The translations under genes and the position numbers were made by a program. Under the pieces are notes generated by a model. That model made no database searches. It had not been told where the DNA came from and saw nothing but the letters and a program-made list of their open reading frames with translations. This document shows positions 43,730 through 64,000 of a stretch of 64,000 bases of DNA, in pieces. The stretch comes from an uncultured Phascolarctobacterium sp. (GTDB taxonomy: Bacteria; Bacillota; Negativicutes; Acidaminococcales; Acidaminococcaceae). The stretch's first letter is position 1. Each line of letters starts with the position of its first letter. The stretch is from the NCBI GenBank assembly GCA_949285135.1, contig CASDXO010000006.1, positions 62,001 through 126,000 on the forward strand, read 5' to 3'.

Positions 43730-43795
43730 AAAACGGAACATTTAAATGTAAAAAATAAGAAAAACGGTAAAAAATAGCTAAAAATCCGAACATTA
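43730..43795 (-). promoter_or_regulatory. Tandem PurBox-like sites upstream of purC
   Basis: On the minus strand AATGTTCGGATTT (near 43794-43782) is an exact match to the inverted PurBox AWWGTTCGGWWWT. A second copy AATGTTCCGTTTT near 43743-43731, with the GG changed to CG, abuts the -35 element. They are direct repeats about 51 bp apart, close to five helical turns. Confidence 0.5.
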
Positions 43796-43827: not shown

Positions 43828-43856
43828 TTTACATATATGAATAGTGATGTTATAAT
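43828..43856 (+). promoter_or_regulatory. Strong promoter of the structured RNA locus
   Basis: TTTACA (43828-43833) and a perfect TATAAT (43851-43856) are 17 bp apart, oriented away from purC, with no coding gene downstream on this strand. Confidence 0.75.
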
Positions 43857-43862
43857 AATACC

Positions 43863-44080
43863 TAACAACAATGGAGTTGTAAGCAAGTGCTTTCAGTCCA
43901 TTGTTGTTTTTTTATAAGCTGAAAGCTTAACGCGTGGCTATATACTGTAAGAGAAAAAGAAAAGCACAGTATTCGCGGAAGCGGCCAATGAGGGGACATT
44001 TGGATTACATAAAGGACTGAAAACAGTCAGCTGTCACGCGCAAATAAAAAAAGCAGATGTTTTTAGCATCTGCTTTTTTT
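43863..44080 (+). ncRNA. Candidate structured non-coding RNA, unknown family
   Basis: Downstream of a strong promoter, with no open frame, the 218-nt stretch folds into ordered elements. A terminator-like hairpin has 12 bp (43864-43875 with 43897-43908) followed by TTTTT. Its loop segment 43889-43896 can pair with 43919-43926. A second domain is closed by 43931-43936 with 44035-44040 and holds a 7-bp hairpin (43942-43948 with 43966-43972), CGC-GGAA-GCG (43974-43983), a hairpin with loop AGGGGA (near 43985-44003) and GACTG-AAAA-CAGTC near 44015-44028. A second terminator ends it at 44048-44080. I checked for 6S, SRP, tmRNA, T-box and common riboswitch cores and saw none. The first hairpin may release a 50-nt RNA, with the rest made by read-through. 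Confidence 0.55.
44048..44080. terminator. Bidirectional terminator
   Basis: The stem AGCAGATG/CATCTGCT (44052-44059 with 44067-44074) is flanked by A and T runs. It can end the RNA locus on the plus strand and the kor operon on the minus strand. Confidence 0.85.
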
Positions 44081-44083
44081 AAT

Positions 44084-50987: not shown

Positions 50988-51146
50988 ATAAAAAAACCCT
51001 TCACCAGTCAGTGAAGGGTACATGTCAGTATGTTCAAGCACTTCTTCATCTGCCGGATTACTCCGTTGGATTTGGCACCGTTCACAGAAAGTGTGGTTGC
51101 CGTAGCTTCATTGGGCCAGTCCCTCGGCTACTCTTGATGAATAACT
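50988..51146 (-). promoter_or_regulatory. SAM-I (S-box) riboswitch with terminator
   Basis: On the minus strand the S-box core is seen: ATCAAGAG near the P1/P2 junction, GAGGGACTGGCCC, ATGAAGC and GGCAACC, then GGTGCCAAATCC and a closing P1 (51136-51141 with 51045-51050). A 9-bp terminator stem (50996-51004 with 51011-51019) with a T run lies before metN. High SAM should stop transcription of metNIQ. Confidence 0.93.
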
Positions 51147-61580: not shown

Positions 61581-63257
61581 TCAGTTTTTGCCATTCTCTA
61601 AAGGCAGATCCTGCAGGGCATCAAAACCGTTTTCACCGGTTCTTATTTTAACTACGTCTTCCACATCATAGATGAAGATTTTACCATCGCCGTATTTACC
61701 GGTATAAAGAATTTTCTTGGCTGTGTTGACAACCGTTTCCACAGGCAGAGCGGAGACAACCAGCTCTACTTTGACTTTAGGCAGCAGGTAGGCAGCTACT
61801 TCGGCGCCACGATACATTTCTGTTCTGCCTTTTTGAATGCCATAACCGAGGACTTTTGTAACCGTCATGCCGGTAACACCGAGTTTGTCCAAGGCCGTTT
61901 TAAGTGCTTCAAACCGATTTTGAGAAGTTATAATGACTACTTTGGTCATTTTCACCTTGCCTTTGCCGGAAGAGGTGTTTGCAAAGGTGACCGGCTGGAA
62001 GGAGTCGCTGCGTGAGTGCGGCAGGTATTCCGTTACGGGCATAAAGTCAGCGTAGCTGCTGGCAAGTCCGTGTTCTTCCATATCAAGACCGGCAATCTCC
62101 TCCTGAGGAGCTACGCGCAGGCCGATAGTTTTATCCAGCAGCATGAAAATGATGGTCATGGCGATAAAAACATACAGGGCGACAGCGATAATGCCGGTCA
62201 GCTGGACTTGCAGCAGGGCGGCAGAACCACTGTAGAAAAGGCCGCCGTTTTCAGCGAAGAGTCCGACGCAGGCAGTACCGAAAGCGCCGCAGACGCCATG
62301 GACGGATATGGCTCCGACCGGGTCGTCTATCTTTAGTTTCTGGTCAAAAAATTCTACTGCCATAACAACTAAGATGCCCGCCAGAGTACCAATACAGAAA
62401 GAACCTGCAATACTTACCATATCGCAGCCGGCGGTGATGCCAACAAGTCCTGCCAAAGCGCCGTTCAGTGTCATGGAAACATCGGGCCGTCCGTATCTGA
62501 CCCAGGTGTAGAACATGGTGGCAGTAGCACCTGCTGCTGCCGCCATATTGGTAGTAACAAAGATTTTGGACATGGACAGCAGAGCGGTGTCGCCGGTAGC
62601 GCAGGCAGTGGAACAGCCGTTGAAACCGAACCAGCCAAACCACAGCAGGAAGACTCCTAAGGCACCGAGAGTAAGACTGTGCCCGGGAATGGCGTTGACG
62701 GTGCCGTCCGCATTATATTTGCCGATACGCGGCCCCAGCATTTTGGCTCCTATAAGTGCAGCAATGCCGCCAACCATATGAACGGCAGCAGAACCGGCAA
62801 AGTCGTGGAAGCCAAGCTGAGATAACCAGCCGCCACCCCAGATCCAGTGGCCGGAAATTGGATAGACAAGTGCGCTGATAACGATGCTGTAAATGCAGTA
62901 AACGGAAAATTTAGTGCGCTCGGCCATGGCGCCGGAAACTATTGTTGCTGCTGTAGCACAGAAGACGGTCTGAAAAATGATAAAGGCCATGGACGGAATG
63001 GCAGAACCGTAATCGTTGAGAATGCAAAAGTCGGGTATACCTGTAATGCCCTTAAAATCATTGCCGAACATCAGACCGAATCCTATTACCCAGAAAACGA
63101 TGGAGCCAAGAGCAAGATCCATAAAATTTTTCATAACAATATTACCGGCATTTTTGGCTCTGGTAAAACCAGTTTCTACCATAGCAAAACCAGGTTGCAT
63201 GGCGAAAACCATGAAAGCCCCGATAAGTACCCAGATGGTATCTGTTGCAGAATACAT
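61581..63257 (-). CDS. Ammonium transporter fused to a PII signal protein
   Basis: The 558-residue protein joins an Amt channel (about residues 1-405) to a C-terminal PII domain (about residues 445-545). The Amt part has the DTIWVLIGAFMVFAMQPGFAMVETG start and twin pore His in AVHMVGG and SVHGVCG. The PII part has VTKVLGYGIQKGRTEMYRGAE; the uridylylated Tyr51 of enteric PII is Val here. The domain likely gates the channel in response to 2-oxoglutarate and ATP. The ATG at 63257 follows AGGAGG. glnN lies upstream with a terminator between. Confidence 0.92.
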   Translation of the reverse strand: MYSATDTIWVLIGAFMVFAMQPGFAMVETGFTRAKNAGNIVMKNFMDLALGSIVFWVIGFGLMFGNDFKGITGIPDFCILNDYGSAIPSMAFIIFQTVFCATAATIVSGAMAERTKFSVYCIYSIVISALVYPISGHWIWGGGWLSQLGFHDFAGSAAVHMVGGIAALIGAKMLGPRIGKYNADGTVNAIPGHSLTLGALGVFLLWFGWFGFNGCSTACATGDTALLSMSKIFVTTNMAAAAGATATMFYTWVRYGRPDVSMTLNGALAGLVGITAGCDMVSIAGSFCIGTLAGILVVMAVEFFDQKLKIDDPVGAISVHGVCGAFGTACVGLFAENGGLFYSGSAALLQVQLTGIIAVALYVFIAMTIIFMLLDKTIGLRVAPQEEIAGLDMEEHGLASSYADFMPVTEYLPHSRSDSFQPVTFANTSSGKGKVKMTKVVIITSQNRFEALKTALDKLGVTGMTVTKVLGYGIQKGRTEMYRGAEVAAYLLPKVKVELVVSALPVETVVNTAKKILYTGKYGDGKIFIYDVEDVVKIRTGENGFDALQDLPLENGKN

Positions 63258-63283
63258 CTTCAAATCCCTCCTAAAATTGACTG

Positions 63284-63320
63284 TAAAAAAAGAGAGGTAC
63301 ATCCTGAAAGGATGCACCTC
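63284..63320 (-). terminator. Terminator between glnN and amt
   Basis: An 11-bp stem with one G-T pair (63293-63303 with 63310-63320 region) and a T run on the minus strand separates the two genes. Confidence 0.75.
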
Positions 63321-63341
63321 GTTGTGCAAAATATGTATTTA

Positions 63342-64000
63342 TCAGTCGTTAACACCAAAAAGCAATTCTCCGTAAGTTGGGTAAGGCAGATATTTTTCAC
63401 CCAGCAATGCTTCTGCTTTATCAGTTACTGTACGCAGCTCTTGCATGATAGCAAGCACACTGTCGTGATAGAAGTAAGCAGCTTCCTGGCTGGAGCTGAT
63501 AGCGGCCGCTGTTGACAGGGCTGTCTCCAGCTTTTCTGCAGCTGCATAGATTTCACTGCTGCTGGCAGAAATTTTTTCTGCCAGCATGCTTTCAAAACCG
63601 GCAGAGATGCCTGCTGCTTTTTTATCCAGTGCAGCCGAAACCAAATCGCTTGTATAGGTGTTAATCGCAGGCAGAATATCCTTGTAGAGCATTTCCAGCA
63701 TGGTGGAGGCCTCAATTTTTAAAACAGTGCAGTAGTTTTCCAGCAGTATTTCTACACGTGAGTGAATTTCAGCAGCAGTAAAGATACCATGCTTGGTAAA
63801 CAGAGCAATATTTTTCTTGTCCGCAAGGTGCGGCAGAGCCTCGGGAGTAGACTTGAGGTTGAGCAGGCCGCGTTTTTGGGCCTCCTGAACCCATTCGTCC
63901 GTATAGCCGTTGCCATTGAAAATAATGCGTTTATGGGTCAGATAGGTTTCGCGTACCAGTGTGTAAACAGCTTTTTCTATATCCTCGGCCTGCTCCAGCT
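63342..64000 (-). CDS. glnN: Type III glutamine synthetase (GlnN), C-terminal part
   Basis: The open minus-strand frame runs off the window end. The visible C-terminal 219 residues include THKRIIFNGNGYTDEWVQEA, KKNIALFTKHGIFTAAEIHSR and the helical tail of the GSIII family (LEMLYKDILPAINTY), which is unlike GlnA types I and II. The family makes glutamine from glutamate, ammonia and ATP. The Amt-PII gene follows after a terminator, a nitrogen-assimilation unit. The 5' part and promoter are outside the window. Confidence 0.9.
   Translation of the reverse strand, partial: LEQAEDIEKAVYTLVRETYLTHKRIIFNGNGYTDEWVQEAQKRGLLNLKSTPEALPHLADKKNIALFTKHGIFTAAEIHSRVEILLENYCTVLKIEASTMLEMLYKDILPAINTYTSDLVSAALDKKAAGISAGFESMLAEKISASSSEIYAAAEKLETALSTAAAISSSQEAAYFYHDSVLAIMQELRTVTDKAEALLGEKYLPYPTYGELLFGVND

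Follow-up and report, generated by a model that had tools for sequence, protein, structure and literature searches.

The observations described below suggest that RNA-A, a 218-nt locus in the genome of an uncultured Phascolarctobacterium, is a non-coding RNA under the control of an ANTAR regulator, which would be produced through nitrogen-linked antitermination and would pair with, and titrate, a second small RNA, RNA-B. The probability of this reading is put at roughly 0.6.

The RNA-A locus and its conservation

The window analysed, a continuous stretch of 64,000 nt, belongs to a 1.89-Mb genome (G000) of the Acidaminococcaceae. RNA-A occupies positions 43863-44080 of the plus strand between purC and korC, both of which are encoded on the minus strand. 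It is preceded by a sigma-70-type promoter, TTTACA-17-TATAAT (43828-43856, plus strand), which agrees with the consensus at 11 of 12 positions and carries a TG before the -10 hexamer (extended TG), and promoters of this type are likewise found upstream of the RNA-A homologues. No open reading frame of 30 amino acids or more is present on the plus strand inside RNA-A. The fold of 43863-44080 has an energy of -74.2 kcal/mol, versus -46.7 +/- 3.8 kcal/mol for 200 shuffled sequences (z -7.2, 0/200).

Several elements can be distinguished in this fold, all on the plus strand. The first is a 12-bp hairpin with a U run (43864-43913), AACAACAAUGG.../...CCAUUGUUGUU, an intrinsic terminator at which a short form of about 50 nt is predicted to end. 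It is followed by a lineage-specific linker hairpin, AAGCU-GAA-AGCUU (43916-43928), and by the body (43931-44040), a closed multi-hairpin domain in whose closing helix, CGCGUGGC/GUCACGCG, six of the eight pairs change on both sides. A second intrinsic terminator with a 17-pair stem and a T run (44045-44081) is the predicted 3' end of full-length RNA-A. The promoter, the missing open frame, the first hairpin with its T run, the closed domain and the second terminator had all been recognised in the original prediction, and each of them is borne out. The 8-bp loop-to-3' pairing that it also described, GCUUUCAG/CUGAAAGC, did not hold up: it is found in the window and in the nearest relative and is absent from the other genera.

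The first homologues in other genera were found by combining a covariance model (R1) with a motif search, and a second covariance model (R2) covers the whole of RNA-A. With R2, RNA-A is detected in 12 of 59 genomes of the family, in 4 of 18 genera, at E-values of 2.6e-20 or better and with a clear gap to all other matches. The copy in the sister species (G001) is 85% identical. Changes on both sides were seen in 15 of 29 tested pairs, compared with 8.1 +/- 1.7 in shuffles (0/500), in an alignment of the 12 sequences that was fitted to the structure, so that the counts lean towards it; sliding the pair partners removes the signal. The checks suggested with the original prediction, a search for relatives with compensatory stem changes and an Rfam scan, thus came out in favour of its novel structured RNA. 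No Rfam family matches RNA-A at its gathering score, and the best sub-threshold matches align mainly to the terminator. Searches of other phyla gave no match convincing as RNA-A except in Phascolarctobacterium records. RNA-A is almost certainly a real conserved small RNA, apparently undescribed so far, of which conservation and structure are observed and transcription is predicted.

The surroundings of the gene are conserved in part. In genera g1 and g9, RNA-A is flanked by purC and kor. The g17 context differs: three genomes have RNA-A after another form of purC, with DUF362/PHP genes beyond, and a fourth has this form of purC nearby. A PurBox-like box, CCGAACATT, lies between purC and the RNA-A promoter (43786-43794). 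A similar box occurs upstream of RNA-A in G058 and G060, in which purC is not divergent. Elsewhere in the window, a SAM riboswitch (RF00162) is located on the minus strand at 51043-51143 with 89.4 bits. An identity of RNA-A with 6S RNA was considered and rejected: the 6S RNA of this genome is at G000:C8:28178-28361, and RF00013 does not match RNA-A.

A probable 5' attenuator

The weaker R2 matches consist mostly of the 5' hairpin alone, situated in the leaders of glnN (glutamine synthetase III), glmS and dapL. The genome of the window is itself an example, as the leader of its own glnN-amt operon has the same attenuator as RNA-A. The 3' part of glnN is found at 63342-64000 on the minus strand and the amt-PII fusion gene (ammonium transporter-PII) that follows it at 61581-63329, both identified from open reading frames and Pfam; the attenuator lies just beyond the window, at about 65541 in window numbering. 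In genus g13, one locus (L187) groups dapL, glmS and glnN, of which dapL and glmS are each preceded by an attenuator. The suggestion of a 50-nt RNA with a read-through form agrees with these findings, the first hairpin being a terminator that occurs alone as an attenuator before glnN and glmS/dapL. Among the 12 RNA-A sequences, its 11 pairs are formed in 94.7% of cells and four pairs show changes on both sides. That the 5' hairpin of RNA-A (P1) is an attenuator is very probable.

A competing mini-hairpin, ACAAC-[AAUGGA]-GUUGU (43865-43880, plus strand), is mutually exclusive with the terminator. Its loop, AAUGGA (43870-43875, plus strand), is a hexaloop of the ANTAR type, in which A1 is position 43870 and G4 is position 43873. 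In every copy of the attenuator, which is a terminator, the proximal arm together with the loop can also form CAAC-[6 nt]-GUUG. The search pattern set the stem only and left the six loop bases open (three second-register matches were dropped), and in the loops so collected G4 is present in 32/32 copies and A1 in 27/32, while positions 3, 5 and 6 are free. Over 33 sequences, 98.8% of the cells of the mini-hairpin stem are paired; the inner stem, being enforced by the pattern, is not independent evidence, and the outer pair is seen as A-U, G-U and G-C. Since G4 pairs in the terminator as well, part of its constraint may come from there, but at loop position 3, the paired neighbour, compensated variation is seen (C-G, U-A, A-U).

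An A1/G4 hexaloop overlapping a terminator is what ANTAR regulators recognise, as defined experimentally (PMC3369931, PMC3369936), and for this reason the attenuator is read as ANTAR-type. One hexaloop has been argued to be the minimal ANTAR binding motif (PMC8934654), and antitermination by EutV needs a dual hexaloop motif (PMC3369931, PMC8934654). Inspection of the leaders by eye found no second A1/G4 hexaloop that would give a P1 + P2 arrangement with fixed spacing, and the apical hairpin loops are mostly 4-5 nt long. The element is therefore not filed as a canonical ANTAR target, although it probably acts in the manner of an ANTAR-target leader.

The genome encodes a suitable protein. A REC-ANTAR response regulator is found beside a HisKA_2 kinase, and it matches EutV (6wsh) with an E-value of 9.8e-47. 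Of the residues by which EutV contacts RNA (roles from PMC8934654, numbering read from the alignment), R142, K143, K149, E160, Y164, M172 and R175 are kept. An ANTAR protein was found in 46/59 genomes, among them every one of the 12 that have RNA-A; the 12 genomes of genera g12 and g15 yielded neither ANTAR nor glutamine synthetase III nor a credible attenuator. The known ANTAR targets are concentrated at nitrogen genes (PMC3369931). It is thus likely that the RNA-A attenuator is controlled by the ANTAR regulator, which would bind the hairpin in response to nitrogen.

RNA-B and its complementarity to RNA-A

Sub-threshold matches of R1, in the same genome and in further genomes, proved to lie antisense to another predicted gene, RNA-B. 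This second small RNA, of about 55 nt, is on another contig (G000:C11:44765-44784; about 1520-1585 of locus L047), where a predicted promoter of its own is followed by AUCAAAACAGCCCCUCAUUUGGCCCUUCUUCGCAAGGGCUUUUUUU; it also has its own terminator. RNA-B falls well short of the gathering score of every Rfam family. Its core is nearly invariant: 45 of 59 genomes, in 13 of 18 genera, contain a match with at most three mismatches, a few of these being due to chance, and in most genomes the site is conserved downstream of an LCP-family gene. RNA-B is apparently another undescribed small RNA, with transcription predicted, and is more widespread than RNA-A. It was not found in G057 (92% complete), whose RNA-A and glnN leader keep the complementary segment. 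In g12 it persists without RNA-A and without ANTAR, and other targets are therefore expected.

A palindrome centred on GTATAC, often TTGTATACAA, is present in the RNA-B promoter region at 20 of 29 loci (L116-L145, L047). Upstream of RNA-A in G055, G056 and G057, ATGTATACAT is found exactly 68 bp before CAAC. Perhaps one transcription factor serves both genes.

The near-invariant segment of the RNA-A body, GGCCAAUGAGGGGA (43983-43996, plus strand), was located from invariant alignment columns and from the antisense matches to RNA-B, and it is complementary to RNA-B CCCCUCAUUUGGCC. Its general form, GGCCAA(N)UGAGGGG, matches in reverse complement the stretch of RNA-B with the highest conservation. 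The RNA-A:RNA-B duplex has energies of -19.0 to -27.8 kcal/mol, with p values of 0.001-0.07 against dinucleotide shuffles in eight genomes, which are related and not independent. In the genome of the window the duplex contains a one-base bulge, and RNA-A ranks ninth by energy among the sites of the 64 kb. The complementarity might be a coincidence between a Shine-Dalgarno-like and an anti-Shine-Dalgarno-like run, the role of the body being unrelated; GAGGGG does look Shine-Dalgarno-like, and other sites in the window reach similar duplex energies. However, the match does not end with the G run, several genomes having GGCCAAAUGAGGGG, and the matching part is the most conserved one in both RNAs, so that coincidence is somewhat unlikely. 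Pairing of the RNA-A body with RNA-B in cells is predicted with fair, not high, confidence.

The motif UGAGGGG/GAGGGGC also occurs in several leaders of glnN or dapL operons, and such a leader in G057 has the identical GCCAAAUGAGGGG. When the pairing of RNA-B with glnN leaders was tested alone, leaving out some leaders that could not be parsed, p was 0.002 in G057 and 0.038 in G066, and 0.05-0.2 or worse in most others, so that these pairings are mostly weak and at best suggestive. Drift in genus g9 has affected all three sequences, namely the core of RNA-B (seen in G009), the segment of RNA-A and the motif of the glnN leader, and no compensatory change between RNA-B and RNA-A was found there, both having decayed. 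A candidate for a compensatory RNA-B in g9 was rejected: the pattern of the expected partner matched only the antisense of RNA-A, and the syntenic RNA-B is a diverged copy, AAGCCUCUAAUUUGG. In nitrogen-gene leaders of genus g13 (L160, L165, L167, L169, L171, L244), a hairpin ACAGCCGC...GCGGCUGU is located 3' of the attenuator; its loop is G-rich, often GAGGGGC, and resembles another scaffold for the RNA-B site.

A possible sequence of events

By combining these observations, it is possible to outline how RNA-A might work. By default, RNA polymerase would stop at the first terminator (about 43913), releasing an RNA of about 50 nt. When the HisKA_2 kinase and REC-ANTAR pair is active, the ANTAR protein would hold the nascent ACAAC-[AAUGGA]-GUUGU mini-hairpin, the terminator would be blocked, and the full 218-nt RNA-A would be produced alongside glnN-amt, which has the same switch in its leader. 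RNA-A has the regulatory elements of the glnN leader but lacks the gene. Its body would then offer GGCCAA(N)UGAGGGG for pairing with the single-stranded CCCCUCAUUUGG of RNA-B, and this titration would keep RNA-B from its mRNA targets, which may include glnN leaders with UGAGGGG. The most economical account is that RNA-A, under antitermination control, provides additional binding sites for RNA-B while nitrogen assimilation is switched on. Sponging of RNA-B as the net function of RNA-A has a chance slightly below even. The complete two-RNA nitrogen circuit, in which a single-hexaloop ANTAR attenuator drives a glnN-leader-mimicking RNA that titrates a small RNA with the core CCCCUCAUUUGG, is proposed tentatively.

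The direction of control might be the reverse, with RNA-B as the regulator and RNA-A as the effector, so that RNA-B opens, blocks or destabilises a body that has some other function. The position of the complementary segment inside a structured domain would fit this, as would the wider spread of RNA-B, but outside the near-invariant segment the body is poorly conserved and no further conserved functional element was found in it, which makes the reversed arrangement unlikely. It is less likely still that RNA-A, full or short, mainly soaks up the ANTAR regulator, the body serving only for stability. RNA-A does carry an ANTAR-type hexaloop, and EutX and Rli55 are precedents for such decoys of EutV (PMC8934654); however, every copy has its hexaloop within reach of a conserved, overlapping terminator with a U run, for which a decoy has no need, there is one hexaloop only, and the conserved segment of the body would be left unexplained.

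RNA-A as a small mRNA under ANTAR control, in which (A/G/U)UG AGG GGA of the conserved segment starts a micropeptide and RNA-B blocks the start, is very improbable. AUG, GUG or UUG is found at that position in every RNA-A, and G058 and G060 have retained the start and stop codons, with one silent change in a Leu codon. The start codon opens only 10 codons in the window, though, and across the homologues the frame length varies between 4 and more than 25 codons, sequence conservation does not reach beyond the third codon, an insertion of 2 nt is present in G055 and no Shine-Dalgarno sequence is conserved; the micropeptide was rejected because its frame is not conserved. Titration of CsrA by the several GGA-bearing loops, as the original prediction had suggested, is refuted for this genome, since CsrA (PF02599) was not found in the genome in searches with positive controls and the GGA loops are better explained by the hexaloop AAUGGA and the segment complementary to RNA-B.

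If RNA-A is an ANTAR-controlled RNA that titrates RNA-B and the circuit exists, one antitermination event would switch both the transcription of glutamine synthetase and a whole small-RNA regulon. If the pairing occurs, antitermination would feed a base-pairing small-RNA network, an arrangement not found in a search of the literature. Both small RNAs, apparently undescribed, would belong to common gut anaerobes, Phascolarctobacterium and its relatives.

Comparison with known systems

The 2022 study of the EutV-RNA structure redefined the minimal ANTAR site as a single hexaloop and asked how common the use of such sites is (PMC8934654). The present set consists of about 30 natural single-hexaloop elements coupled to terminators in one bacterial family, before nitrogen genes and a non-coding RNA.

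The attenuator resembles the ANTAR-target leaders of nasF, amiE and eutP, which respond to NasR, AmiR and EutV, in having a short hairpin with an A1/G4 hexaloop and a mutually exclusive intrinsic terminator, in the two-component ANTAR regulator encoded by the genome and in the link to nitrogen genes. It differs from them in that a single hexaloop is situated at the very 5' end, that the proximal stem and loop of the hexaloop hairpin, not the distal stem, are part of the proximal arm of the terminator, and that a non-coding RNA would be controlled. Like EutX and Rli55, which sequester ANTAR proteins, RNA-A is non-coding and has an ANTAR-type site; unlike them, it has no Rfam riboswitch match, its one hexaloop would act as an attenuator of RNA-A itself, and an additional body is complementary to a small RNA. 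RNA-A is about as long as 6S RNA and, like it, has a domain that is closed and structured, but it does not match the 6S family. As in small-RNA sponges and decoys, a small-RNA core finds its reverse complement in the conserved segment of RNA-A, whereas the synthesis of this putative sponge, unlike theirs, would be set by protein-controlled antitermination.
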